DNA of 64,000 nucleotides, from IMG/VR virus record IMGVR_UViG_3300017917_003637, positions 22,763-86,762 of that record; one strand, given 5' to 3'. Below are positions 14,943-54,705 of the stretch, piece by piece. The notes beneath the pieces are model-generated. The model ran no database searches. It was not told where the DNA came from and saw only the letters and a list, made by a program, of their open reading frames with translations. This DNA comes from a virus. Numbering within the stretch: the first letter of the stretch is position 1; every line of letters begins with the position of its first letter. Both the position numbers and the translations under genes were made by a program.

Positions 14943-17363
14943 ATGCCAACTACAAATAATCTTAACCAATTTTTGGTACCAGCTCAAGACGCTTTTTTAT
15001 ATCAATTAGTCTATAACAAAGTATATGGTGGTAGAACAGGTTGTACTGTCAACATTAACGGCACGACAGTTCAAATGGGTGCAAATTCTTCAATCGATAT
15101 ATTAGTGGAAACTATAAGTGGTGGTACTGGATGTTTGGTATCTGGTGACAAACCAAATGTGTATGGTGATAGTCCTCAATACAAATATGTTCCACAAACT
15201 TTTGTTTCCGTATGGGATACCAGAAGAACAAGTACTGGTAGTAGCACCGCAACACAAGTTAGATTGCCTTTAATTTCAACAGGTACGTATAATTTTATTG
15301 TTGATTGGGGTGATGGGAGTACAGATAGAATAACTGTATGGAATCAAGCTCAAACTACTCACACATATACTAGAGCTGGTGTTTATCAATTAACAATAAC
15401 TGGAACATTGTATGGTTTTACATTTTACAATGGGAGCACTGGTGTTGGAGATAGACTTAAATTGTTAACAATTTTTAAATGGGGGACTGGTTTTAGATTA
15501 GGAAACAATGCTGGTTATTTTTGGGGATGTGAAAATCTTCAATTAAGTGAAGTTGAAGATGTGTTAGATTTAACCAACACAACGCATTTTGGTAGTATTT
15601 TTAGAGATTGTTTTAATCTTACAACCGTAAACAGGATAAATGAGTGGAACACGTCAAACATTACCCTTATGGGTGGTGTTTTCTTAAACTGTGTTAGATT
15701 TAACCAAGATATTAGTAATTGGGATACATCTAATGTAACTGACATGGTCCTTATGTTTTCTTGTGCTGGAAGCCTTAGAGGTGTGTTTAATCAAAATATT
15801 GGAAATTGGAATACAAGTAAGGTTACAAATATGCAGCAAATGTTTTCTAACCAACCTAACTTTAATCAAGATATATCAACAAAAGTTGTTACTAGAGCAA
15901 ATGGTTCATCGTATGTTGCTTGGGATACATCTAATGTGACTACCATGAATTTTATGTTTGGGTGTGGTGCTGGTATTAGAGGTATGTTTAATCAAAATAT
16001 TGGAAACTGGAATACTAGTAAAGTTACAAATATGGCTTCTATGTTCCAAAACCAAGTTGAGTTTAATCAAGATTTATCAACAAAAGTTGTTACCGTTGGT
16101 AATTCAACATATATCGCATGGAGTACGACCAATGTAACAAACATGACGTTTATATTTGGTGGTGGTGAAAGAAATGGTAAATTTAATGGAAATGTAACTA
16201 ATTGGGATATTAGTAAAATTACTAGTATGCAAGCTTTATTTGCGAATAAAATTGATTTCAATCAAGATATATCAACAAAAGTTGTTACCGTTAGTGGTTC
16301 ATCTTATATTGCTTGGAACACAACGAACGTAACTATTTTAACCTCATTATTTTCGTGTTCAGTTAATTCTGGTAATTTTAACCAAAATATTGGAAATTGG
16401 GATACTAGTAGAGTTACATCTATGTCCTTTATGTTTAATGGTCAACCTAAATTTAATCAAGATATATCAACAAAAGTTGTTACCGTTAGTGGTTCATCGT
16501 ATATTGCTTGGAACACAGCTAGTGTGACTACTATGGATTCAATGTTTAATTCTGTAGTTGTTGACGGTGAGTTTAATCAAAATATTGGAAATTGGAATAC
16601 TGGTAGGGTAACAAGTATGAATCAATTGTTTACTGGACAGCCTAATTTTAATCAAGATATATCAACAAAAGTTGTTACCGTTAGTGGTTCATCATATGTA
16701 GCTTGGAACACGTTGAGTGCTACTAGTATGAGTTTCATGTTTTTTACTTATGGACCAACATTTAATAGATTGTCTGGTACTTTTAATCAAAATATTGGAA
16801 ACTGGAACACTAGTAGAGTAACAACCATGGCCTCTATGTTTGTTAATCAAGCTAATTTTAATCAAAACATAGGAACAAAACAAGTTACAGTTAGTGCGTC
16901 GACTTATTCTGCTTGGACTGTTTCTGCTGTTACTAGTATGTTTGATATGTTTTATATTCACAATCCTACCACAACTGGTGGGCTTGCTGGCTCATTCAAT
17001 AACAGTGGTTCTACATCAATAAACAATTGGGACGTTAGAAGATTAAGTGCTGCTACAGATATGTTTAACTATCAAATAGGTTTTAATCAACCCATAGGGA
17101 ATTGGAATATAAGTGGTGTTACTAATTTTAGTTCTACTGGTAGCACTATAGGAACTGAAGGTTTCATGTTTGGTAAAACTAGCAACGATTATTCTAGTGC
17201 AAATTATGACGCATTGTTGATTGGATGGGCAACAAGAAATGTAAGACCAAACCAATTATTAAACATGGGTACAATAAAATATTCTAGTGCAGCCGTTTCA
17301 GCTAGAAGTGTATTAACATCGGCACCTAACAATTGGACAATAATAGATGGAGGGTTAGTATAA
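14943..17363 (+). CDS. Tail fibre/adhesin with PKD-like domain and DUF285 repeats
   Basis: An 806-residue protein. Residues 1-80 form a small domain also encoded alone at 17659. About 95-155 resembles a PKD domain ([13 protein letters not shown], then [16 protein letters not shown]). From about 170 to 790 it is built of more than ten BspA/DUF285 repeats of the form FNQDIS...W-[DN]-[TI]-S-x-V-T-x-M-x-x-MF. These repeats form surface-exposed solenoids in bacterial and mycoplasma surface proteins. A host-recognition fibre or adhesin on the virion is the likely role, although it could be a baseplate-associated surface protein. The following small genes overlap or adjoin it. There is no signal peptide, as expected for a virion protein. 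Confidence 0.8.
16257..16712 (+). repeat. Near-identical DNA repeats inside the fibre gene
   Basis: A unit of about 55 bases occurs three times with few differences, at about 16257-16320, 16451-16514 and 16646-16711, spaced about 195 bases. More diverged copies lie at about 15863 and 16070. The core is TCAACAAAAGTTGTTACCG. The repeats encode the same DUF285 solenoid turn and could recombine. Confidence 0.8.
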
Positions 17364-17934: not shown

Positions 17935-19152
17935 ATGGAAAGAAATTTTAGAATCAACCCAGTTGGTCTTAAAGGAAATGAAATCAACGAGCGTATGAAA
18001 CAACTTATGGGTGTAACACCTATAAACGAAGGTTTATCTCGTTCAACAGTTGAATTAACCAAAATTGGTCCAGATGGTAAAGCATATGGTATTGTAAGAG
18101 AAAATCATGAATATTACATAAAAGTATCTGACAAGACCGAAAACCTTACTGTTGAGGACTTTAAATACATTGGTGGTCTTCAAAATAAAAAATCAGAAGC
18201 GTATCCATCATATGCTAAAGCTACTAAACACTTAAACTTAAAATTTAACTCTATTTGCGAATCATTTGATATTGTGAATACATTCAACGTATTTGTTGAT
18301 GATAACTTGTTATCTGAAGGTGCTGCTAAAGAAGCTACTAAACACATTACAGATGCTAAGGGTAAAGAGTTAGGTGGTAAAGTAAAAGAAGAAGGTGGTG
18401 ATAACTTGGCTGAGAAAAAAGTCATGGATGAATTAGAAGAAGTTACTCTTACTGAAGATGAGTTAGCTATTGACGCTATGCTTAACGAAAGTGATGAAGA
18501 AGACTTGGATGAGTCAGCTCAAGGTGAAGTTGGTGCATATGCTCATGAAAAATCTAAGAAAAAAGACAAAGAAAAAGATGAAGATGAAAAAGACTTAGAC
18601 GAAGCTGAATCTAAAAACAACCCATGGGCTATCTGTACCGCTAGTGTTGGTCGTGAAGACAAAGAAAAATACGAAGCGTGTGTTAGAGACGTTAAAAAAC
18701 AAAAAGGTGTTAAAGAAGAATTAAAAGGTGGTCAACACAAAATCGATGCTAATAAAAATGGTAAGATTGATGGTGAGGATTTTAAACTTCTTAAAAAAGG
18801 TAAAACCAATGAAAACATTGATGACCAGATGTCTACTGACGAATTAATGGATAAACTAGATAATATGTCAGCTAAAGAATTGTTACAATTGTTAGGTGAT
18901 GCTGGTAGAGACTTGAAAAATGTAATTGCTAGAAAATTATCTACAGGTATGGATAAAGCTAGAGATTTTTTTGATAAGCAATATCCAGATGTTAACGAAG
19001 AAATGACTGACAAACAAAAGAAATTTGCTGCTTTGGCCGAACCTAAAGATAAAATCACATATGCTGATAAAATTGCTGGTGCTACCAAAGATGAAGCTAT
19101 GACACTTGAAGAAATTCAAGAGGCGATTGCTGATTTAAAAAAAAAACTTTAA
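17935..19152 (+). CDS. Acidic virion protein with EF-hand-like loop (first frame of a split gene)
   Basis: A 405-residue acidic protein. MGVTPINEG at 26-33 offers a candidate prohead-protease site after E32. The middle is highly charged. About 227-255 holds an NPWAICTASVGREDKEKYEACV module, and about 267-284 an EF-hand-like calcium loop (DANKNGKIDGED) followed by FKLLKKGK. The frame ends in LKKKL at an A10 run. In the -1 frame from that run it continues as TLSEAKKYKLKLDKP into the next open frame without a start codon, so the two frames are probably one polypeptide. Likely a virion or prohead protein by position; function unknown. Confidence 0.75.
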   Translation: MERNFRINPVGLKGNEINERMKQLMGVTPINEGLSRSTVELTKIGPDGKAYGIVRENHEYYIKVSDKTENLTVEDFKYIGGLQNKKSEAYPSYAKATKHLNLKFNSICESFDIVNTFNVFVDDNLLSEGAAKEATKHITDAKGKELGGKVKEEGGDNLAEKKVMDELEEVTLTEDELAIDAMLNESDEEDLDESAQGEVGAYAHEKSKKKDKEKDEDEKDLDEAESKNNPWAICTASVGREDKEKYEACVRDVKKQKGVKEELKGGQHKIDANKNGKIDGEDFKLLKKGKTNENIDDQMSTDELMDKLDNMSAKELLQLLGDAGRDLKNVIARKLSTGMDKARDFFDKQYPDVNEEMTDKQKKFAALAEPKDKITYADKIAGATKDEAMTLEEIQEAIADLKKKL

Positions 19153-20630
19153 GCGAAGCTAAAAAATATAAATTGAAGTTGGATAAACCAGCGTCAGAGG
19201 CTCCTATTGCCCCTGCCCCTGCTCCAGCTGAACCTACAACCGAACCAGCTGATGAAGCTGGTTTTGGTGATTTTGGGGGTGAGGAAATGCCAGCAGAACA
19301 ACCAACTGGGGATGAAGCACCAGCAAACGATATGCCTGATTTTGAAAAAGAACCATTTGACGCTGGAGTTGATGCTGATGAGGAAACTGACCCTAAAAAA
19401 TTTATTGAGCAATTAAGTGGTAAATTAGGTCAGTCATTAAGACAGTATACCAAAGACCAAGGTCAACCAGATTTTGAATTGGAAAAATTCGCAATTAATT
19501 CAGTTATTTCAGCAACAAACACTGCTGATATGGATGAAGAAGATAGAAATGATATTATCAAAAAAATAGAAAAATCTGGTGAAGATGAAACACAAGACTT
19601 TGGAGATGATAATCAAGCTGGCGCCGACGCTGGAGATGATTCTTTCGGTGGACCCGATAACGGGGCTGGTAATGCTGATGAGTTTGATTTTTCATCTGAT
19701 GAAGAACCAGTTCAAGAAGGTAAATTTATGCTTGACAAAACAAAAAAACTAAGCATCTTTGCACCTGAGGGCAGTGAAGAAGCAAAATTTAAACACATAA
19801 ATGAAATGAAAGAAGGTTCAAACAATTACATGTTCTGGCAAAATTTAAAAACTATTGTACATGCCGCATCTGAATTATTAAAAATGGATTGTGACCAAGT
19901 TGATACATTGTTATCAGATGGTCATGGTTGGGCTCTTGACCACATGGCTACATCCGCTGATGACGTTGAAGAAGTGTATCACTTTGTTGAAGGTCGTTTA
20001 AACGATACCCATGAGGATTCTGGTGAAGAAATGGATTATTCAAAATGGGCTCAACCAATGAAATTAAACCAACCAGTTACTGTGTCTAAAGACTTAGCTT
20101 ATCACTTAACTAACGAAATCGCGTTGGGCGAATCTATTTTCAGATATGGTTCTGAAAAATTCCAAAACCTTGTTAAAGAAGTAAGACAATTAAAAGCTAA
20201 GGGTCTTATTGATTTGAATGAAAATGACCAATTTATCGTTGAAGATTATGACAACGGTTTTGTTGTGATTGGTGAAAACAAAGTTAAATTAAATACAATC
20301 TTTGAAGAATTTGATGCTGAGACAATCAACGAAGCTGAGTATCAAGGTAAAAAAGTACAGTTAGGTAAGCCTAAACGTGGTGGTTCTAAAAAATTCTACG
20401 TTTATGTGAGAAATCCTAAGACTGGTAAAGTTAAAAAAGTATCATTTGGAGCTCAAGGTGGTGGTGGTAACTTAGCGGTTAAATTAAAAGACCCTAAGGC
20501 TAGAAAAGCATTTGCTGACAGACACAACTGTAAGGCTAAAAACGATAAAACAAAAGCTGGGTATTGGGCATGTAGATTGCCTAGATATGCTAAATTATTA
20601 GGTTTATCAGGTGGTGGTACTTGGTGGTAA
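19134..20630 (+). CDS. Second frame of the split acidic virion protein
   Basis: The frame is open from just after a TGA at 19131 and has no ATG with a leader until 19287. The first possible initiator is a TTG at 19173. The sequence right after the A10 run (TLSEAKKYKLKLDKPASEAP) reads as a smooth continuation of the upstream protein. It then has a Pro/Ala/Glu-rich linker, a long acidic region, a folded middle part (YMFWQNLKTIVHAASELLKMDCDQV) and a C-terminal Cys module ending in DKTKAGYWACRLPRYAKLLGL and a WW. An INEAEY site near 388 could be cut by a gp21-type protease. Coordinates mark the open frame, not a proven start. Confidence 0.65.
   Translation, partial: FKKKTLSEAKKYKLKLDKPASEAPIAPAPAPAEPTTEPADEAGFGDFGGEEMPAEQPTGDEAPANDMPDFEKEPFDAGVDADEETDPKKFIEQLSGKLGQSLRQYTKDQGQPDFELEKFAINSVISATNTADMDEEDRNDIIKKIEKSGEDETQDFGDDNQAGADAGDDSFGGPDNGAGNADEFDFSSDEEPVQEGKFMLDKTKKLSIFAPEGSEEAKFKHINEMKEGSNNYMFWQNLKTIVHAASELLKMDCDQVDTLLSDGHGWALDHMATSADDVEEVYHFVEGRLNDTHEDSGEEMDYSKWAQPMKLNQPVTVSKDLAYHLTNEIALGESIFRYGSEKFQNLVKEVRQLKAKGLIDLNENDQFIVEDYDNGFVVIGENKVKLNTIFEEFDAETINEAEYQGKKVQLGKPKRGGSKKFYVYVRNPKTGKVKKVSFGAQGGGGNLAVKLKDPKARKAFADRHNCKAKNDKTKAGYWACRLPRYAKLLGLSGGGTWW
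19137..19146 (+). other. A10 run: candidate -1 slippage site
   Basis: GAT TTA AAA AAA AAA CTT TAA in the first frame. Slipping one base back gives AAA ACT TTA AGC GAA GCT and enters the downstream frame. A missing A in the sequence would look the same. Confidence 0.6.
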
Positions 20631-21096: not shown

Positions 21097-22179
21097 ATGA
21101 AACCATATAGCGAAATAGAAAAAGGGAACATAGTAAGACGCACATTTTCAGACAACGTACCTGAGAGTGAGTTGGTGTGGCATAGAGACCATGAGGATAG
21201 GGTTGTTTTACCATTAAACGAGAATGATTGGATGGTTCAATTTGATAATGAATTACCACGAAAACTTGTTGTTGGTGAAGAATACTTTATACCTAAAAAT
21301 ACTTTTCATAGAGTTATAAAGGGGTCTGGTGAATTGCAAGTTGAAATCATAAAAACTGATTTTAACGAAGTTATTGAAGAAGGTGATAAGAAAGCTAAAA
21401 GAGACGCTTGTTATCACAAGGTAAGAGCTAGATATGATGTATGGCCATCTGCTTATGCTTCTGGTGCTCTTGTTAAGTGTCGTAAGGTTGGTGCTTCTAA
21501 CTGGGGTAACAAATCAAACGAGACTGAAGACATAGGTAAAAGCGGTAAAAAACAGTTTAAAAAAGACTTACAAAAAGACCCAGATTACTTAAAATATAAA
21601 GACAGCGATAATGAGTTTGGTGTACCAAATGTAACAACAGATGACCCATTTATCAAAAAAGGAAGATACACTAGAGTTGGTAAAGAAGACTTAGATGAAT
21701 TAACAGTTTATGAAGCTAAAAAAACTGATTTCTCAAAAGAAAAATCGCAAGGTCTTCATGGATGGTTTTCTAGAAAAGGTGGTGAAGGTTCTAGCGGTTG
21801 GGTTGATTGCAACACATGTAGAAAAGACCCAGATACTGGTAGAAAGAAATGTAAACCATGTGGAAGACAAGAGGGTGAGAAAAGAAAATACCCAGCATGT
21901 CGTCCAACACCGTCTGCATGCGGTACAAGAGGCAAGGGTAAAAAATGGGGTAAAAAAAGTACCTCAGAGGGCTTGAATATCTCAGAAAATTTTAGTATAT
22001 TTGATAAAGACTATTTAAAAATGAGATTACAAGAAACATTTAACCACGAAGAACCGTTGGTATTACCAGCTGAACCTAAAACTAAACCTAAGGAATCTCC
22101 AATGGTTCAACCATCAAGACGCAATAAGCCTTTCTTACCTGAAAGAGAAACGCAACCAGACCCAAAAGCTGAAAACTAA
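21097..22179 (+). CDS. Cupin-like protein with Cys-rich modules
   Basis: A 360-residue multi-part protein. Residues about 20-86 look like a small cupin: histidines at 29, 32 and 71 in the order WHRDHEDR ... FHRV could bind a metal. Next come a YHKVRARYDVWPSAYASGALVKCRK module (about 106-130) that I have seen as a recurrent phage module, and a glycine/cysteine region (about 225-290) with CNTCRKDP, CKPCGR and YPACRPTPSACG, which could bind zinc. The last 60 residues are proline-rich and probably disordered. The stop overlaps the next start. Role unknown, probably virion-associated by position. Confidence 0.55.
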   Translation: MKPYSEIEKGNIVRRTFSDNVPESELVWHRDHEDRVVLPLNENDWMVQFDNELPRKLVVGEEYFIPKNTFHRVIKGSGELQVEIIKTDFNEVIEEGDKKAKRDACYHKVRARYDVWPSAYASGALVKCRKVGASNWGNKSNETEDIGKSGKKQFKKDLQKDPDYLKYKDSDNEFGVPNVTTDDPFIKKGRYTRVGKEDLDELTVYEAKKTDFSKEKSQGLHGWFSRKGGEGSSGWVDCNTCRKDPDTGRKKCKPCGRQEGEKRKYPACRPTPSACGTRGKGKKWGKKSTSEGLNISENFSIFDKDYLKMRLQETFNHEEPLVLPAEPKTKPKESPMVQPSRRNKPFLPERETQPDPKAEN

Positions 22180-24904: not shown

Positions 24905-26671
24905 ATGCTAACAGCACAAGAAATATTTAAAGAATATTCTAAGTGTCTCATGAATCCAATTTATGCGATTGAGACATACTTGGAAACGTTCGATAAGACG
25001 CAAGAAGGGTTTGTTCCCTTTAAACTATTTCCTAGACAAAAGGAGATTATAAACGCATACGAAAAGAACAGATTTAACTTGGTGACAAAACCAAGACAAG
25101 CTGGGGTTTCTACCACAACAGCAGCATATATGGCGATAAAAGTTGGATGGGCCGACGAGGATAACCCAGAAGCGGTTCTTATCATCGCCAACAAACAAGA
25201 ATTGGCCTTCGAGTTCTTGGCCAAGATTAAAGACTTTTTATCTCAGTTACCTAGATGGGTTTGGGGTCATGAATATTATGGTAACCCTAAAAACGAGGGT
25301 AAATCAATTTTCCTTACCGATTCTAAAAAAGAAATTAAGTTACCTAACGGTAGTCGTGTTAAAGCAGTTGCAACATCTAAGGATGCTTTGCGTGGTTTTA
25401 CACCAACCTTCCTTATCATGGATGAGGCTGCGTATATTGACAACGGAGCTGAGGTATTTGGTGCCGCTCTTACCGCATTAGGTACTGGGGGTAGAGCTAC
25501 ACTTATTTCTACACCTAACGGTATGGACCCATTATACTACAAAACATATGACCAAGCAAGAACCAAAAAGAACAATTTCAACATTATTGAAATGAAATGG
25601 TATGAAGACTTGCGTTACAACAAAGACTTGAGATGGGTTAAGGGTGATGATATTGAAAAAGAAATATATTTTACTTTTGAATCCTATCAAAGAAGAATTG
25701 CAGATGGTTGGAAACCCACATCAAGCTGGTACGAAGAGATGTGTATGGGTATGAACAACGATGCCCGTATGATTGCCCAAGAGCTTGATGTATCGTTTAT
25801 TGGTTCTGGGGGTAATGTGATTAGTGAAGAATTTATCGAATACCACGAGAAAAACAATGTGTTGGAACCTAAGATAACCATGGGTCTTGAAAATGAGATA
25901 TGGATATGGGAAGAACCACAGGAAGGACACCAATACATTATGGGTGTTGACGTTTCTAGAGGTGATGGTGAGGATAGTTCTACGATTGTAATAATTGATT
26001 TTACGACCATGGAACAAGTAATGGAGTATCAAGGTAAGATTCAACCAGACTTATTGGCTCAAATCGTTGAGGAATACGGTGAATTGTATGAGGCCTATAC
26101 TGTTGTCGATGTTACTGGTGGTATGGGTGTGTCAACAGTTCTTAAATTACTTGAATTTAATTATAAGAGATTGCACTACGATGACGCAACTGGTAAAATT
26201 TTATCGGCTAGACAAAGAGAATTAAATAGCCATTTGAAGAAGGATAAAATCCCAGGATTTCACGCAACAAATGTTCGTGTACCGATGATTTCAAATTTGG
26301 AATATAAAATTAGAACCAATGCTATCAAGATACGTTCTAGTCGCTTGACTTCAGAAATGAAAACATTTATTTATAAGAATGGTAGACCTGACCACATGGA
26401 AGGTTATCATGATGACTTACTTATGTCATTGGCAATGTGTCTTTGGGTTATGGAACACTCATTTAAAAAACTTGAAAGACTAGAGAAACAAAATAAAGCG
26501 ATATTAAATAGTTGGCTTAGTGGTGCGAATGTTTCGTCAACACCAACGATTAGAGATAAAGACCCAAATACTGGGAATATTACACAGAAAATAAACCCCA
26601 CACATACTGCATATAAAAATGTTCAAGACCCTAGAGGTCAGTATTCGTGGTTATTTGCTAAACCAAGATAA
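24905..26671 (+). CDS. terL: Terminase large subunit (gp17 type)
   Basis: A 588-residue packaging motor that pumps DNA into the prohead and cuts the concatemer. The ATPase domain has an adenine-motif region FPRQ (42-45), a Walker A variant TKPRQAGVST (61-70), Walker B LIMDE (170-174) and motif III STPNG (202-206). The RNase H-type nuclease domain has MGVDVSRGDGEDSS with D349, a second acidic strand VVDVTGG (D402) and a third site YHDDLLMSLA (D503, D504). The length is close to that of T4 gp17. No small-subunit gene is recognised next to it. It heads the head-gene module after a terminator and an ATATTTATT element. Confidence 0.97.
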   Translation: MLTAQEIFKEYSKCLMNPIYAIETYLETFDKTQEGFVPFKLFPRQKEIINAYEKNRFNLVTKPRQAGVSTTTAAYMAIKVGWADEDNPEAVLIIANKQELAFEFLAKIKDFLSQLPRWVWGHEYYGNPKNEGKSIFLTDSKKEIKLPNGSRVKAVATSKDALRGFTPTFLIMDEAAYIDNGAEVFGAALTALGTGGRATLISTPNGMDPLYYKTYDQARTKKNNFNIIEMKWYEDLRYNKDLRWVKGDDIEKEIYFTFESYQRRIADGWKPTSSWYEEMCMGMNNDARMIAQELDVSFIGSGGNVISEEFIEYHEKNNVLEPKITMGLENEIWIWEEPQEGHQYIMGVDVSRGDGEDSSTIVIIDFTTMEQVMEYQGKIQPDLLAQIVEEYGELYEAYTVVDVTGGMGVSTVLKLLEFNYKRLHYDDATGKILSARQRELNSHLKKDKIPGFHATNVRVPMISNLEYKIRTNAIKIRSSRLTSEMKTFIYKNGRPDHMEGYHDDLLMSLAMCLWVMEHSFKKLERLEKQNKAILNSWLSGANVSSTPTIRDKDPNTGNITQKINPTHTAYKNVQDPRGQYSWLFAKPR

Positions 26672-26984: not shown

Positions 26985-29045
26985 ATGGCAAAAGAAAATT
27001 TAACAATATTTCAAAGGTTAAACAGAGTTGTTAACCCTAATTACAATCCACCACAAAAACAAACCACACAACGTTTTAATTTGGGTGGTGGTGAGTTGCT
27101 TAAGACTACAAGCAAAGCTGAATATGAATCGGCTAAATTACAAGCACAACAAAATAAATACTTACAAAGCACATGGAAACGAGTTGAAAACGGTTTGTTT
27201 CAACAATCAATAAATTATGAAACAACTCGTGTTGGTTCTTATTCTGATTTTGAAGCCATGGAGTTTTACCCGACAATTGCTGCTGCGTTGGATGTGATGA
27301 TGGAGGAATCTACCACGGTAAACGATAGAGGTAGAGTGCTTAATATTTATTCAGATAGCAAGCGTGTTAAGGGTATTCTTGAGGATTTATTTTTTAACAG
27401 ACTAGATTTACACACTACGTTACCAATGTGGGTTAGAAACACATGTAAATATGGTGATAATTTTGTCTACTTAAATATCAATGATAGACAAGGTATTGTA
27501 TCCGCAAAACAAATGCCTAACTATGAAATGGAGCGTAGAGAAGCTGGGTTATATGATTTGGTTAGTGGTAGAGAATATTCTGATAACCAAGATGAAAATA
27601 AAGACAGAGTAAAATTCTATTGGAGAGGTCGTGATATTGAATTTAACTCATGGCAAATCGCCCATTTCCGTTTGTTAGGCGATGATAGACGTTTACCATA
27701 CGGTACCTCGGTGTTAGAAAAAGCAAGACGTATTTGGAAACAACTTATCTTATCTGAAGACTCTATGCTTGTATATCGTGTAACTAGAGCACCAGAAAGA
27801 CGTGTATATAAAATATATGTTGGTAACATTGATGATGCTGACGTTGAACAATACGTGAACGCGATTGCTGATAGATTTAAGCGTATGCCAATTATTGACC
27901 CTCAAACTGGACAAATTGACTTGAGATATAACCAATTATCAAACGACCAAGATTTCTTTATCCCAGTTAGAGATGAGAGCGCTCCGAATCCAATTGATAC
28001 GTTACCAGGTGCTGCCAATTTGGACCAAATTGCAGATATTCAATACTTACAAGGTAACTTATTTACTGCTTTGCGTGTTCCTAAACCATTCTTAGGTTTT
28101 GAAGAAGCAACTGGTGAAGGGAAAAATCTTGCTTTGCAAGATATACGTTTTTCTAGAACCATAAACCGTATTCAACAATCTATGCTTCAAGAGTTAAACA
28201 AGATAGCAATTATTCATTTGTTTATTCTTGGATTTGAAGAAGATTTAGATAATTTTACGCTTACACTTAATAATCCATCAACACAAGCGGAAATGCTTAA
28301 AGTTGAACACATGCAAACCAAAGTTACTCTTGTTAAAGATTCTGTTACTGATATCGGAAATGGTTTTGGTGTTATGTCTTGGACCAGAGCTCACAGAGAA
28401 ATATTGGGTTGGTCTGACGATGAAATCAAACAAGACTTACTTGAACAACGTATGGAGAAAGCCGCTGCTGCTGAATTACAAAATACAGCCGCAGTTATTA
28501 AACATACTGGTATGTTTGATGCCGTTGATAAAATATACGGTGATTACCAAGCCGCTCTTAAAGGCGCTGAAGGTGGTGAAGCCGCTGGCGGAGAAGCTGG
28601 TGGCGGAGGCGGAGGCTTCGGCGGTGGTGGTCTAGGTGGTGAAGATTTAGACTTTGGAGCTGAGGGTGGTGCTGAAGGTGGTGAAGAAGCTGCTGGTGGT
28701 GAAGAAGCTGCTGGTTTTGGAGGTGAAGCTGGTGCCGCTCCTGAGGCTGGTGCCGCTCCTGAGGCTGGTGCAACACCTGAAGCTGGTGGTGAAACACCAG
28801 AAGGTTTAGCTGAATCACTTAAAAAAACTGAAAAAGTCTTAACAGAAAGAAAAGAATACTTGGCTAAAAAGTTAAATGAAAGGAACCAAAAATATCAAAA
28901 AAGATTTGTTGATGTATTGGTGGAATCTGTTAAGGAAAAAAACGGAAATGAAGATGTTAGTGTTAAAATATATGACAAGAACGTTAAAATTAACGAAGAC
29001 GTTAACAATATGATAAATGACATAAATAAAATGTTGGATGAATAA
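26985..29045 (+). CDS. gp20: Portal protein (gp20 type)
   Basis: A 686-residue protein that forms the dodecameric ring at the packaging vertex. Its identity rests on T4-like portal features: YPTIAAALDVMMEESTTVNDRGRVLNIYSDSKRVKGILEDLFFNRL early, then KYGDNFVYLNI, ARRIWKQLILSEDSMLVYRVTRAPERRVYKI and LRVPKPFLGFEEATGEGKNLALQDIRFSRTINRIQ. About residues 525-607 is an unusual Gly/Ala/Glu-rich stretch with a GAAPEA repeat; standard portals lack it. The C-terminal helix holds KTEKVLTERKEY. Its neighbours are the terminase and prohead core genes, as in T4. Confidence 0.95.
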   Translation: MAKENLTIFQRLNRVVNPNYNPPQKQTTQRFNLGGGELLKTTSKAEYESAKLQAQQNKYLQSTWKRVENGLFQQSINYETTRVGSYSDFEAMEFYPTIAAALDVMMEESTTVNDRGRVLNIYSDSKRVKGILEDLFFNRLDLHTTLPMWVRNTCKYGDNFVYLNINDRQGIVSAKQMPNYEMERREAGLYDLVSGREYSDNQDENKDRVKFYWRGRDIEFNSWQIAHFRLLGDDRRLPYGTSVLEKARRIWKQLILSEDSMLVYRVTRAPERRVYKIYVGNIDDADVEQYVNAIADRFKRMPIIDPQTGQIDLRYNQLSNDQDFFIPVRDESAPNPIDTLPGAANLDQIADIQYLQGNLFTALRVPKPFLGFEEATGEGKNLALQDIRFSRTINRIQQSMLQELNKIAIIHLFILGFEEDLDNFTLTLNNPSTQAEMLKVEHMQTKVTLVKDSVTDIGNGFGVMSWTRAHREILGWSDDEIKQDLLEQRMEKAAAAELQNTAAVIKHTGMFDAVDKIYGDYQAALKGAEGGEAAGGEAGGGGGGFGGGGLGGEDLDFGAEGGAEGGEEAAGGEEAAGFGGEAGAAPEAGAAPEAGATPEAGGETPEGLAESLKKTEKVLTERKEYLAKKLNERNQKYQKRFVDVLVESVKEKNGNEDVSVKIYDKNVKINEDVNNMINDINKMLDE

Positions 29046-31025: not shown

Positions 31026-31751
31026 ATGGATATAAATTATAAAGACTTTAGAATACTTAAGAGAGGTGAATCTGGTTGGGGTGGCCTTATTGAGCACGAT
31101 GCTGGGTATATTAGCCCAGATGAACCTAGAAACCAACCATTCATCAACGAAATCAAAAAACTAGACGGTGGCAGCAAATTAGCCATAGTCGAGCCGTTAA
31201 TCGTATATGTAGTACTTCAAAAATACGGAATCCTTAATCGTAACGGTAGGGTATATCCAGAATCAGTATTAAAAAAACAAGTTAATCTTTATCAAGAAGC
31301 AATTCGTGAGCGTAGAGCGGTTGGTGAATTAGACCACCCAGAATCTTCAATTATTGCTGGTGATAGAATTTCACATAATATTATTGAAACTTGGTGGGAA
31401 GGACAAACCCTTATGGGTAAGATGGAAATCCTTATGACTCCAGGTTTTATAAACTATGGTATTGTATCAACTAAGGGTGATGAGGTTGCAAACTTATTGA
31501 GAAACAGAATCAAGATTGGAGTTTCTTCTAGAGGTGTTGGTTCGCTTAAAGAAGGTAAAAACGGAGAACAAATAGTACAAGATGATTTTGAAATTATTTG
31601 TTGGGATGTGGTTACAGCACCTTCAACTCCAGATGCTTGGATTGGCCGTAGCGCTGAAGAAATGAAGCCATATGTTGAAAACACTGAAGTTAAAAAACCA
31701 ATTATCAAAGAAACACTTAAGGATAACTTAGATAAATTTTTAGCTGATTAA
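31026..31751 (+). CDS. gp21: Prohead maturation protease (gp21 type)
   Basis: A 241-residue serine protease of the herpes/T4 assemblin fold that cleaves core and capsid proteins after (I/L)-x-E during head maturation. The family signature is clear: NRNGRVYPE at 71-79, GELDHPES at 100-107 with catalytic H104, and IKIGVSSRGVGSL at 162-174 with the catalytic serine at 167 or 168. The C-terminus VTAPSTPDAWIG is also typical. It is slightly longer than T4 gp21 (about 212 residues). It lies directly before scaffold and major capsid genes as in T4. Confidence 0.96.
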   Translation: MDINYKDFRILKRGESGWGGLIEHDAGYISPDEPRNQPFINEIKKLDGGSKLAIVEPLIVYVVLQKYGILNRNGRVYPESVLKKQVNLYQEAIRERRAVGELDHPESSIIAGDRISHNIIETWWEGQTLMGKMEILMTPGFINYGIVSTKGDEVANLLRNRIKIGVSSRGVGSLKEGKNGEQIVQDDFEIICWDVVTAPSTPDAWIGRSAEEMKPYVENTEVKKPIIKETLKDNLDKFLAD

Positions 31752-31871: not shown

Positions 31872-33128
31872 ATGGCAGATAAAAAATCAATACTTGAAGA
31901 AGCCCTTTTGGATATCAATCATATTCAAAATGCTCTTAATGCTAATACCAAAGAAATACTTCGTTCGGTAGCGAAAGAAGAAATTAACGGTGTTGTGAAA
32001 GAGTCTCTAGAAGAAGAGATTTACGAAGAAGAAGAAGTAGAGGAAACTATGGATGAAGCTACTGAAGAAGTAGAAGAAACTATGGATGAATCTATGGAAG
32101 AAATTGAAGAAGGTTATATGGAAGAAGAAGGTGACCTTGAAGAAGGCGACCTTGAAGAAGAAAGCATGGATGAAGACATGGATGAACTTGATATGACTGA
32201 CGCATCAGATGATGAAGTTATTGCTATCTACAAAAAAATGAGTGGTGATGATGAAATCGAAATTGTAGGCGATGAATTACGCTTAAACATTTCAGAACCA
32301 GGTGAATACGTTGTTAAACTTAACGGCGCTGACGAAATGGGTGACGAAGACATGGAAGATGAATTAGAATTGGAACCAGCTGACGATATTATGGGTGGTG
32401 ACGATGAAGAAGACATGGACATGGATATTGAAGATACCGATGAAGAAGGTGACGAAGAAGATTTTGACTACGAAATCGAAATGGATGACGAGGAAGACAT
32501 GGGCGACGAAGAAGACGACATGGAAGATGAAGAATCTATGGATGACGAAGAAATGGGTGACGAAGAAGAGGAAGAAGAAATTGAAGAATCTTTGGGATAC
32601 ACAAGAGGTTATGCTGGTAGACAAGGCGCTAGAAAAAATGGTGCTGCTCACTTACCAAAACCTAAATCTGAAAGTGTAAATGAAACAATCGCTGCAAAAA
32701 AATTAGTTTCTGAAACAGCTAAAAAATATAATGCTTTATTAACTGAAGCAACTAAACTTAAAGCTGAGAATAATGAATTCAGAGCAGCTCTTAAAGAGTT
32801 TAGAACAAAATTGGTAGAAACTGTAGTTTTCAATAGCAATTTAACTTACGTAACTAAATTGTTTATGGAACACTCAACAACCAAAGGTGAAAAAGATTCA
32901 ATCCTTAAAAGATTTGATGATGTAACTAGCCTTAAAGAATCAAAAAAACTTTATAAAACTATTGCTAACGAATTGGAGTCTAGAAAACCAATTTCAGAAT
33001 CAGTAGAAAATAAAATCATTAAAGAAGCTACTAGTGGTGTATCAAAACAAATTGTAGAAAGCACCGCTTATGTAGACCCTTCAACAAAGAGAATCATGGA
33101 TTTGATTAACAGAGTTGAAAGAAGATAA
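31872..33128 (+). CDS. gp22: Prohead scaffold protein (gp22 type), very acidic
   Basis: A 418-residue protein between protease and major capsid protein. The first 45 residues and last 170 are helical. The middle (about 45-240) is almost entirely Glu, Asp and Met in long runs, far more acidic than its neighbours, with one folded-looking island (DDEIEIVGDELRLNISEPGEYVVKLNGADEM). The C-terminal region has coiled-coil character and several (I/L)-x-E sites (LLTEATK, ISESVE) for digestion by the protease. The assignment to gp22 rests on order and character, not on direct similarity. Confidence 0.85.
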   Translation: MADKKSILEEALLDINHIQNALNANTKEILRSVAKEEINGVVKESLEEEIYEEEEVEETMDEATEEVEETMDESMEEIEEGYMEEEGDLEEGDLEEESMDEDMDELDMTDASDDEVIAIYKKMSGDDEIEIVGDELRLNISEPGEYVVKLNGADEMGDEDMEDELELEPADDIMGGDDEEDMDMDIEDTDEEGDEEDFDYEIEMDDEEDMGDEEDDMEDEESMDDEEMGDEEEEEEIEESLGYTRGYAGRQGARKNGAAHLPKPKSESVNETIAAKKLVSETAKKYNALLTEATKLKAENNEFRAALKEFRTKLVETVVFNSNLTYVTKLFMEHSTTKGEKDSILKRFDDVTSLKESKKLYKTIANELESRKPISESVENKIIKEATSGVSKQIVESTAYVDPSTKRIMDLINRVERR

Positions 33129-33163: not shown

Positions 33164-35023
33164 ATGTCACATTTATTGACTTCAGGACAAGTTGGTAACA
33201 TCGGATTAAACCACATGAAGGCTATCCGTTTGGAAACCCAACAAAAATGGGACTCTTTAGGATTCTTAGATGGTCTTAAAGGTCACGTTAAAGAAAATAT
33301 TGCTCAGTTATATGAAAACCAAGCTTCAAACTTGTTAACTGAGGCAACTAACGCTACATCATCTGGTTCTTTCGAGACTGTAGTATTCCCAATCGTAAGA
33401 AGAGTTTTCTCAAAATTATTAGCTAACGACGTAGTATCTGTACAAGCTATGAACATGCCAATTGGTAAATTGTTCTACTTTGTGCCTCTTACTTCAGAGC
33501 GTGTAAACGCTGCTGGTCAAGGTGGTGACCCATATGCTACAACTGCATCTAGTGATGTTTGGTCTACTAACCCAGTATACTCTGCTCACACTTCAATGGG
33601 TAACGAAGGTATTCCATCATGTGTTAAAGCTGCTGGTAGTACTTGTACTGTAACTCCATTTGCTGCTAAAAACTTGTACGATATATTCTACAACGATGGT
33701 TTATTCGATAACTCAAAAGGTACTCTTACAATTAAGACTGCTAGCCCACTAGGTGTTTACACTTTAGGTACTGACGGTGCTTTCAGTATTGTAACTGGTA
33801 CTGGTACTACTTTACCTACAGCTGCTGACGGTTCTGTTAGAAGCGTAATTGTTGCTCTTTCTGGTTTCTCAGGTGGTGCAGGTTCTAACGGTAGAGAAGT
33901 GTTGACAGGTCCTGATGGAAACAACATGGATACTGAATCATTCTTAGCGTCTCTTCACGTAATCGCTGGTTCTACATTGTTAGACGCAGATGGTAACGCT
34001 GTTGTTGCTATCAACAAAGAAGTTCCATTCCGTCTTGTTACTCAAAGATACGGTGTTGGTATCGTTTCTGGTCCTAACGTTGTAACTGATGGTAACGGTG
34101 TATGTTGGTTAGAGTTAGATTTGACTCACCCAGTTGGTACTTCTGCTACTGCTGGTGCATCTTACCCAGGTACTGCAACTTATGATGGTTATGTAGGTGT
34201 TTCTGCAACAACATTCCCTTCATTCTCAGGTTTCAGTGCTGCATGGGCTGAATACGCAACATTAGAGTTCGAAACAGAAATGGGTGAAGTATCATTCAGA
34301 CTTGATGAAGTTGTTGTTTCTGTAGAAGAAAGAAAATTAAGAGCTACTTGGTCTCCAGAGTTAGCACAAGACGTTAGTGCATTCCACAACATCGATGCTG
34401 AAGCTGAGTTGACAGCTATGTTGTCAGAACAAGTTGCTGCTGAGATTGACCGTGAAATCCTTAGAGATTTACGTAAAGCTGCTGCATGGCAATTGCGTTG
34501 GGACTACAACGGATGGAGAAAAACTTCAACTGCTGCTCAACCATATACTCAAAAAGAGTGGAACCAAACTTTAATTACTAAAGTTAACCAAATTTCTGCT
34601 CAAATCCATAAATCTACACTTAGAGGTGGTGCTAACTTCATCGTTGTATCTTCAGAGATTTCTGCAATCTTCGACGACTTAGAATACTTCCACGTGTCAG
34701 ACGCTAACCCTGAGCAAGACCAATACAACATGGGTATTGAGAGAATCGGTTCATTAGGTGGTAGATATCAAGTATATCGTGACCCATATGCACCAGCATA
34801 CTCAATCATCATCGGTCACAAAGGTAAATCATTATTGGACACTGGTTACATCTACGCTCCGTATGTACCATTACAGTTGACTCCAACAATGTATAACCCA
34901 TTCAACTTTGCTCCAGTGAAAGGTATCATGACTCGTTACGCTAAAAAAGTGGTTAACAACAGATTCTATGGTCACTTGAGAGTTGATGGTGTACAAACCT
35001 TCAACATCAATGAATTAAGATAA
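33164..35023 (+). CDS. gp23: Major capsid protein (gp23 type)
   Basis: A 619-residue protein that forms the hexamers of the head shell. The N-terminal 60 residues end in NLLTE|AT. This matches both the gp21 consensus and the position of the T4 gp23 cut (after residue 65), so the mature form probably starts at A61. FETVVFPIVRRVFSKLLANDVVSVQAMNMPIGKLFY is the conserved start of the HK97-fold core. The later region FRLDEVVVSVEERKLRATWSPELAQDVSAFHNIDAEAELTAMLSEQ is also typical. It is about 100 residues longer than T4 gp23, with a Gly/Ser/Thr-rich insert at about 180-350. Codon use is richer in preferred codons than its neighbours, as expected for a highly expressed gene. Confidence 0.97.
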   Translation: MSHLLTSGQVGNIGLNHMKAIRLETQQKWDSLGFLDGLKGHVKENIAQLYENQASNLLTEATNATSSGSFETVVFPIVRRVFSKLLANDVVSVQAMNMPIGKLFYFVPLTSERVNAAGQGGDPYATTASSDVWSTNPVYSAHTSMGNEGIPSCVKAAGSTCTVTPFAAKNLYDIFYNDGLFDNSKGTLTIKTASPLGVYTLGTDGAFSIVTGTGTTLPTAADGSVRSVIVALSGFSGGAGSNGREVLTGPDGNNMDTESFLASLHVIAGSTLLDADGNAVVAINKEVPFRLVTQRYGVGIVSGPNVVTDGNGVCWLELDLTHPVGTSATAGASYPGTATYDGYVGVSATTFPSFSGFSAAWAEYATLEFETEMGEVSFRLDEVVVSVEERKLRATWSPELAQDVSAFHNIDAEAELTAMLSEQVAAEIDREILRDLRKAAAWQLRWDYNGWRKTSTAAQPYTQKEWNQTLITKVNQISAQIHKSTLRGGANFIVVSSEISAIFDDLEYFHVSDANPEQDQYNMGIERIGSLGGRYQVYRDPYAPAYSIIIGHKGKSLLDTGYIYAPYVPLQLTPTMYNPFNFAPVKGIMTRYAKKVVNNRFYGHLRVDGVQTFNINELR

Positions 35024-42301: not shown

Positions 42302-43030
42302 CTATAACCCTCTTTTTGTTAGTATTTCATACAAATCTTTAAATCTTTTCATAGCAATCCTTATGTCTTTGGTTGAAAGATTTGTATAATTTCTCATTGT
42401 TTCTAAAACAGAGTTTTTATTATATTTAGAACCACCGTCGAAACCTTCAAATGCGGTTTCCCAATTTTCGAGTATGTAAATCAAAGCATGGCCTACTTTT
42501 TTTTCATTCTCATTTAGTTTTTTTTTGGGTGGTAAGTTTTCATCATCCATTTCATCTTTAATATTACTAATTAAATTTAAAATGAAATCGTCCATAACAA
42601 AACTATCGTTATCAATCACGTATGTTAAATCTTGCCTTTCTTCAAAATCTGTCATCATATCCTCATATGATGCAGTTTGTTTTAAGTATTTTTCGTCTTT
42701 GATTAATAACCCTAAAATGTAGTTTTTACTTATGGTTCCAAAGTATGAATAAGCTTTTTTTCCTCTTCCAGCTTCAAATTTATGTACTTTTGTCATCAAG
42801 AAAGAAACGGTGTCACTATGAAGTTCTTCATAAGTTTCACCCTTTCTATATAACTTGTATCTCCTGATGATTGCTTCTATCATTTTATCCAATGGCGCTT
42901 TTAAGAACTCATTGAATATATTGTTCCTTTCGTTGGTGTCGTTGGATTCTAAAAATCTAATAACTGCTTCTTCTTCTTCGGGACCAAAATACATTTCGTT
43001 TTTTCTTTTGCGTCCTCGTCTAGTAGTCAT
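42302..43030 (-). CDS. gp55: Late transcription sigma factor (gp55-like)
   Basis: A 242-residue protein with a sigma region-2-like helical block at about 30-115: NNIFNEFLKAPLDKMIEAIIRRYKLY, then ETYEELHSDTVSFLMTKVHKFEAGRGKKAYSYFGTISKNYILGLL. The last motif is the usual core-binding and DNA-melting helix of phage T4-type sigma proteins. Region 4 is absent or replaced by a helical C-terminal part with YTNLSTKDIRIAMKRFKDLYE. gp55 directs host RNA polymerase to late promoters with only a -10-type element. That fits the short ATATTTAT(A/T) element recurring here, but the link is inference. It stands next to the structural operon. Confidence 0.8.
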   Translation of the reverse strand: MTTRRGRKRKNEMYFGPEEEEAVIRFLESNDTNERNNIFNEFLKAPLDKMIEAIIRRYKLYRKGETYEELHSDTVSFLMTKVHKFEAGRGKKAYSYFGTISKNYILGLLIKDEKYLKQTASYEDMMTDFEERQDLTYVIDNDSFVMDDFILNLISNIKDEMDDENLPPKKKLNENEKKVGHALIYILENWETAFEGFDGGSKYNKNSVLETMRNYTNLSTKDIRIAMKRFKDLYEILTKRGL

Positions 43031-53898: not shown

Positions 53899-54705
53899 TT
53901 ATGGTAAAATTTGTTTTAGTTTATTATAAATAAAGTCGTCAGCTATTAAATATTTTTTAGCTAATTCAAAATTGGTTTTAATCGAATCCATTTTAGAGTT
54001 GTAATAATTTTCGTCTAGTTGGTTAATAACTGAATTTAAATCATTTATATCATTTATTATAACCATACCATTTAAATCAAAAAATTCACCAATAGATGGA
54101 CACCCCCAATAAATAGGTATCGTTCCTGTTATAAAGGAATCTATCAGTTTTTCACTAAAATAATAATCTTTTTTACAATTTTCAATGACAATTGAAAAAC
54201 GATAATCTTTTAAAGCGCTTATTTTTTTTTCAATAGGATTATTAAAACCATATTTATCTATGTTTGTTATACTATTAAATATTAAGTGTCTAAACAAATG
54301 GCCAGAAGTGCTTTTTTTAGCTGATAAAATCATAGATATGTTTTTAGATTTATCGTGTATTTGTCTGTCTTCAACATCAATCCAACAACCACCATACGGT
54401 ACCAACACAAATTTTTCAGATATTGATAACAATGATTTATCGAAAGTAAAAATTAAATCAAACTTGTGATAATTATCCTTAATAAAATTATACGCAAATG
54501 AAGTTATTTCTGGTGACTCTAACAACCATGCAAACTTTTTTTTATTAGTAAAATTATCCACAAATTTTAATGAAAAATCTGTAAATATTAAATACTCTTC
54601 ATCGTATTTTCTAACCCAATCAAAATATTCTGGTTCATTATACCAGCTGCTAGATTTTGCATGTGAAAACATTGAATCGTGTATGTATAATTTATCTCTT
54701 GACAT
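53899..54705 (-). CDS. GT10-type fucosyltransferase-like protein
   Basis: From the ATG at 54705 the protein has 268 residues. Its diagnostic part is at about 165-205: DYRFSIVIENCKKDYYFSEKLIDSFITGTIPIYWGCPSI. This matches the GDP-fucose-binding C-terminal motif of alpha-1,3-fucosyltransferases (F-x-ENS-x-DY-x-TEKL...G-x-VPV-x-G). FAWLLESPEI fits the family's N-terminal motif. It overlaps the FkbM gene by 14 bases, and longer frame starts would overlap more. A second user of the GDP-fucose made by the operon is the likely role. Confidence 0.75.
   Translation of the reverse strand: MSRDKLYIHDSMFSHAKSSSWYNEPEYFDWVRKYDEEYLIFTDFSLKFVDNFTNKKKFAWLLESPEITSFAYNFIKDNYHKFDLIFTFDKSLLSISEKFVLVPYGGCWIDVEDRQIHDKSKNISMILSAKKSTSGHLFRHLIFNSITNIDKYGFNNPIEKKISALKDYRFSIVIENCKKDYYFSEKLIDSFITGTIPIYWGCPSIGEFFDLNGMVIINDINDLNSVINQLDENYYNSKMDSIKTNFELAKKYLIADDFIYNKLKQILP

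Follow-up and report, generated by a model that had tools for sequence, protein, structure and literature searches.

A conserved run of A's as a probable programmed transcriptional-slippage site in a head-cluster gene of T4-like phages

Comparative sequence analysis indicates that a run of ten A's in a gene of the head cluster of a T4-like phage is probably a programmed transcriptional-slippage site. The run lies in the window, a 64,000-nucleotide stretch of a virus contig of 86,762 bases, and it joins two reading frames, referred to here as A and B. The virus very probably uses slippage at this conserved run to produce one protein in two lengths, short and long, with RNA polymerase most likely being the machine that slips. 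Comparison with relatives showed, at the level of sequence, that the frame break is conserved, that the run at the break consists of at least nine A's, that no alternative start accounts for the second frame, and that the two parts are fused in frame in a separate clade. From the gene neighborhood and motifs, we infer a role inside the head and proteolytic cleavage of the product.

Results

An A10 run joins two frames in the window

ORF A (17935..19152, + strand) encodes the predicted default, short product, a protein of 405 aa with the C-terminus IADLKKKL, and its N-terminal ~130 aa are strongly conserved among members of the family. The end of the frame, at 19132-19152, reads GAT TTA AAA AAA AAA CTT TAA, containing a run of ten A's (19137..19146, + strand) that is phased in frame A as TTA AAA AAA AAA and is followed one codon 3' by the TAA stop of the short product (19150..19152, + strand). 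This is the sole homopolymer of at least ten residues within the 64 kb window. ORF B (19137..20630, + strand) is a -1 frame extension of 497 codons that has no start codon at its beginning; its translation opens KKKTLSEAKKYKLKLDKP... and remains open through 20630. Close to its 5' end, a TTG at 19173 is the sole codon resembling a start, and its first ATG lies ~50 codons inside the frame. Frame B would be opened by the insertion of one more A into the transcript or by ribosomes slipping to -1 at the A10 run. The C-terminal ~84 aa of ORF B match phrog_7595. The original prediction, that an A10 run joins two frames of which the first ends in LKKKL and a stop and the second lacks an ATG at its beginning, was borne out by the sequence, and 95 of 105 distinct junctions from related contigs carry the same -1 break with A9-A11 at the join.

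Shorter runs are also present elsewhere in the window, where uninterrupted minus-strand genes carry A9 in the coding sense at 42518-42526 and 54222-54230 (encoding KKK and EKK, respectively), possibly representing unprogrammed slippage sites.

The frame break is conserved among relatives

Relatives were collected by scanning viral contigs for both the A and the B halves, and several hundred loci were obtained. At 95 of the 105 distinct junctions, the B homologue is in the -1 frame relative to the A homologue, and an uninterrupted A9-A11 stretch occupies the join (A9, n=7; A10, n=85; A11, n=3), a pattern far beyond chance, and A7 or A8 was found at the join of none of the 97 run-bearing junctions among the 105. 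The run is retained even among relatives with ~40% protein identity, and an earlier set of 98 junctions fell into 80 clusters at 75% nucleotide identity. Frame B is conserved from its first codons onward, right at the junction, and the two non-B frames close 0-8 codons from the run. In several loci (e.g., L074, L094, and L103), a B-frame stop abuts the run, implying that the shift must occur within the run itself.

Codon usage points in the same direction, with the run evidently being under selection rather than tolerated. Elsewhere in the loci of the relatives, KKK is written AAA AAA AAA in 5 of 181 instances, AAA accounts for 81% of Lys codons in these loci, and no A run of at least ten was found elsewhere in 397,581 bases of the relatives' coding sequence, the longest being nine. 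Two conserved lysines of the KYKLK motif a few codons downstream of the run are encoded by AAG in 50/77 and 65/87 cases (65-75%). At the codons of the run, AAG is found only as the final codon of the A10 run in the L118-L120 group.

The phase of the break departs from -1 at two of the 97 run-bearing junctions. L123 combines an A9 run with a B frame at +1 (or -2), whereas A10 and the -1 phase are found in the related L118-L120. In L347, the A10 run is retained (L347:4464-4473) with B in frame with A, and the addition of one extra A produces AAA CTT TAA, the same KKKL-stop short end that is found in the window. L347 would therefore represent a reversed default, where slippage would yield the short product. 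Each of these exceptions is a single contig, and they could be either real phase flips or one-base assembly errors.

In a marine clade (L277-L287), the conserved A and B regions occupy one uninterrupted ORF of ~540-630 codons, and no such A run was found at the join. This clade forms one side of the tree with support of 100/99, based on few columns and a midpoint root. One of its members, L277, is a contig of a Prochlorococcus single-cell genome; it was the sole match in one search of bacterial genome contigs and is also present in the viral collection, as L278. Because the marine clade encodes A and B in one ORF, the A-B fusion appears to be a real protein, to which the slippage lineage would add a short form. 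Homologues with an uninterrupted frame lacking the homopolymer, which the original prediction named as an observation that would refute it, thus do exist in this one clade, although the single ORF of the marine clade leaves the break in the other 95 junctions unexplained.

Several explanations that dispense with slippage were weighed against these data. An error of sequencing or assembly, or gene decay, for which the true sequence would be A11 and the product a one-frame protein, has a negligible probability: a single homopolymer base is the commonest assembly error and a separate clade does have one uninterrupted ORF, but the break recurs in the same phase at the 95 distinct junctions, near-identical contigs agree, B is conserved from its first codons, and no disruption is seen in the large head genes nearby in the window. 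The original prediction had left the choice between -1 slippage and sequence error undecided; the conserved break and the floor of nine A's support slippage, and the presence of the break in about a hundred distinct contigs refutes the error reading for the family. Phase variation, by which DNA-level mutation of run length would toggle the long product, is only marginally less improbable. Homopolymer runs are classic contingency loci, and the phases of L123 (A9) and of L347 (A10 with B in frame) do differ, yet under such a switch many contigs would be expected to be in the ON phase, whereas only the two exceptions depart from -1. Moreover, the run length was equal in all contig pairs with 85-99.7% identity, and on this constancy and the 2/97 off-phase junctions phase variation was rejected. 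The chance that A and B are two genes, with ribosomes initiating independently on B or reinitiating past the A stop, is comparably slight. The A stop is near the B frame, and in the window the TTG at 19173 could serve as a start, but start codons were found in the A/B overlap of 0/95 junctions, the result on which a separate B start was rejected, and in only 2/95 does one occur in the first 8 codons past the run. Conservation of B sets in directly at the junction, another clade encodes the two regions as one fused ORF, and under a two-gene arrangement nothing would explain why the run is retained.

Polymerase slippage is favored over ribosomal frameshifting

Efficient slippage by bacterial RNA polymerase occurs at runs of 9 A's or T's, its RNA:DNA hybrid being 9-10 bp (PMC5009743). 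The run of ~9 or more A/T at the join that is characteristic of transcriptional slippage is present at 97/97 run-bearing junctions (A9-A11). Since the observed floor of nine A's matches the slippage threshold of the polymerase, transcriptional slippage fits better, and we infer that the polymerase rather than the ribosome slips, favoring programmed transcriptional slippage over ribosomal -1 frameshifting. The predominance of the -1 phase is not demanded by polymerase slippage alone, and would be accounted for if the addition of one A is the commonest slip.

A competing source of the long product is programmed -1 ribosomal frameshifting on A_AAA_AAA in the run, with the mRNA carrying ten A's, which we regard as unlikely but as a serious contender. 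An in-frame heptamer of the X_XXY_YYZ type is present within the runs as A_AAA_AAA or A_AAA_AAG, with A_AAA_AAA found within every run and T_TTA_AAA also present in the window, and it is because of A_AAA_AAA and the dominance of the -1 phase (95/97 run-bearing junctions) that ribosomal slippage retains this weight. In addition, the ribosome is responsible for the classic frameshifts of phages, such as lambda G-T (PMC5009743). However, seven A's would suffice for the ribosome and AAG would be tolerated, yet all junctions with a run have at least A9, and L123 would require a +1 or -2 shift. Across the 95 junctions, there was no indication of a hairpin at +3 to +9, with 34-nt energies averaging -2.46 compared to -3.28 kcal/mol in control windows, and upstream SD-like elements were found at 13/95 (14%) compared to 9% in control windows, no clear excess. 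Ribosomal frameshift sites without stimulators do exist. Hairpins are present further downstream, at +30 to +80 (mean z about -2, also against a synonymous-codon null), but these track the KYKLKL codons (~+40, or +94 where an insert intervenes) and lie at a variable distance from the run. Given that they are at no fixed distance from the run, they were not used as evidence for frameshifting, and their candidacy as a frameshift stimulator was discarded.

As a separate observation on these structures, hairpins that are stabler than their synonymous-codon versions occur in approximately half of the relatives L001-L121, ~30-100 bases past the run (19176-19260 in the window).

The gene lies in a T4-like head cluster and encodes protease-site-like motifs

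The A/B gene lies in a T4-like head cluster in which the terminase, portal, gp21-like protease, and gp23-like capsid protein correspond to phrog_2, phrog_213, phrog_207, and phrog_138, respectively. The T4-like terminase large subunit (24905-26671) and the portal (26985-29045) are encoded downstream of the A/B gene. The cluster also includes the T4 gp21-like head maturation protease (31026..31751, + strand), which presumably cuts the A/B product, an acidic protein that is scaffold-like by its position alone (31872-33128), and the T4 gp23-like major capsid protein (33164..35023, + strand), which has an N-terminal LTE/A motif.

T4-type proteases cut head proteins after Glu within short motifs (PMC5694885). 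A candidate prohead-protease site, Leu-Ser-Glu followed by Ala, is encoded at the start of frame B (19149..19157, + strand), and this LSE/A is of the same type as the LTE/A motif of the capsid protein. Two further candidates, identified by motif only, are Ile-Asn-Glu sequences: one, preceding a Gly, lies close to the ORF A N-terminus (18022..18030, + strand), and the other, preceding an Ala, lies immediately upstream of the phrog_7595 module in ORF B (20325..20333, + strand). Among the relatives, (L/I/V)xE was present between the run and KYKL in 87/88, compared to a background of 0.029 per residue elsewhere in both proteins. Given the T4-like head cluster and these motifs, the designation of A/B as a virion protein in the original prediction seems reasonable. 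The simplest reading is that it may be a protease-processed, head-internal protein, with the B part made in a set proportion.

Searches of PHROGs and Pfam matched neither A nor B to an annotated core-protein family, with Pfam returning nothing useful. In records of cultured phages, no match to A was found and B was matched in parts only; in Flavobacterium phage immuto, the C-terminal part of B is a separate gene. AlphaFold models were weak, with pLDDT of 72 for the N-terminal domain of A and 50 for B, and these weak models produced no convincing match among solved structures, while among viral structure models the sole matches were uncharacterized phage proteins.

Several other features of this region were observed. 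In eight relatives (L064, L069, L072, L074, L087, L095, L100, and L103), the C-terminal modules of B are reordered or lie in other downstream frames, as if modules of head proteins had been shuffled. An 806-aa protein of repeat units (14943-17363 in the window; phrog_17273 and phrog_22899) adjoins the head genes. Within a neighboring ORF (21097-22179; phrog_727), ~100 bases at 21392-21500 encoding YDVWPSAYASGALVKCRKVGA are 77-85% identical at the DNA level to many Synechococcus and Prochlorococcus phages (105 records), a likeness that is unusually close for otherwise distant phages.

Discussion

Based on the data presented above, we propose that most transcripts of the gene would contain ten A's and direct synthesis of the short protein A, ending in KKKL. 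The run is approximately the length of the RNA:DNA hybrid of the polymerase, and an A would be added in a fraction of transcripts as it is copied; reading of these transcripts would continue into frame B to produce a long A-B protein of ~900 aa, with the ratio of short to long protein set by the run. The (L/I/V)xE motif just past the join could allow a gp21-like protease to split A from B during head maturation, an arrangement that would have a Gag-Pol-like economy. That this holds across the lineage, in T4-like and often jumbo phages, with polymerase slippage at an obligatory A9-A11 setting the ratio of two head-internal proteins and the protease cutting beside the junction, is a more tentative proposal that we consider possible, at somewhat short of an even chance.

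A small number of bacterial genes are known to use slippage at A runs. Among these, tssM1 of C. rodentium and tssM3 of Y. pseudotuberculosis have a poly-A tract (A11 in tssM1) near the stop and two length variants per gene, with slippage producing the long form in one and the short form in the other, a reversal that resembles L347 compared to the remaining junctions (PMC4256274). They differ in that tssM is a cellular type VI secretion gene for which two species were tested and efficiency was measured (PMC4256274), whereas the case described here concerns a phage head-cluster gene conserved over about a hundred distinct junctions and identified by sequence comparison. In Thermus thermophilus dnaX, a run of 9 likewise sets the ratio of two products, and the short-product frames close within a few codons of the run (PMC5009743), as they do here; however, the default frame of dnaX encodes the long product, while here nearly all members have a short default.

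Lambda gpG/gpGT and other phage frameshifts also yield an extended assembly protein through a widely conserved -1 phase, but these are ribosomal and occur in tail or capsid-subunit genes (PMC5009743), in contrast with the long A run of a T4-like head-cluster gene beside a protease-site-like motif. T4 is a named exception to G-T frameshifting (PMC5009743). The T4 prohead core proteins and gp21 offer a further parallel, in that the protease cuts after Glu (PMC5694885) and homologues of the capsid protein, protease, portal, and terminase are clustered in the window; no description of a frameshift in T4 core proteins was found in the literature searched. Open-literature matches for transcriptional slippage in phages consisted of reviews, bacterial examples, and a single phage methyltransferase for which it has been suggested (PMC2853527). 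Conserved slippage in a structural or head gene of a tailed phage was not found in the open-licence literature searched, a result that is weak evidence of absence.

What is new here is a slippage signal retained over about a hundred distinct junctions, with a clade lacking slippage as a natural control. Ordinary ORF callers break the gene in two, and the signal would be lost if the homopolymer were "repaired" in good faith. If the proposed mechanism is true, the A/B gene would in effect be the equivalent of Gag-Pol in a bacterial virus, with the polymerase taking the place of the ribosome, and it allows the way in which T4-like heads fix the stoichiometry of their inner proteins to be tested directly.
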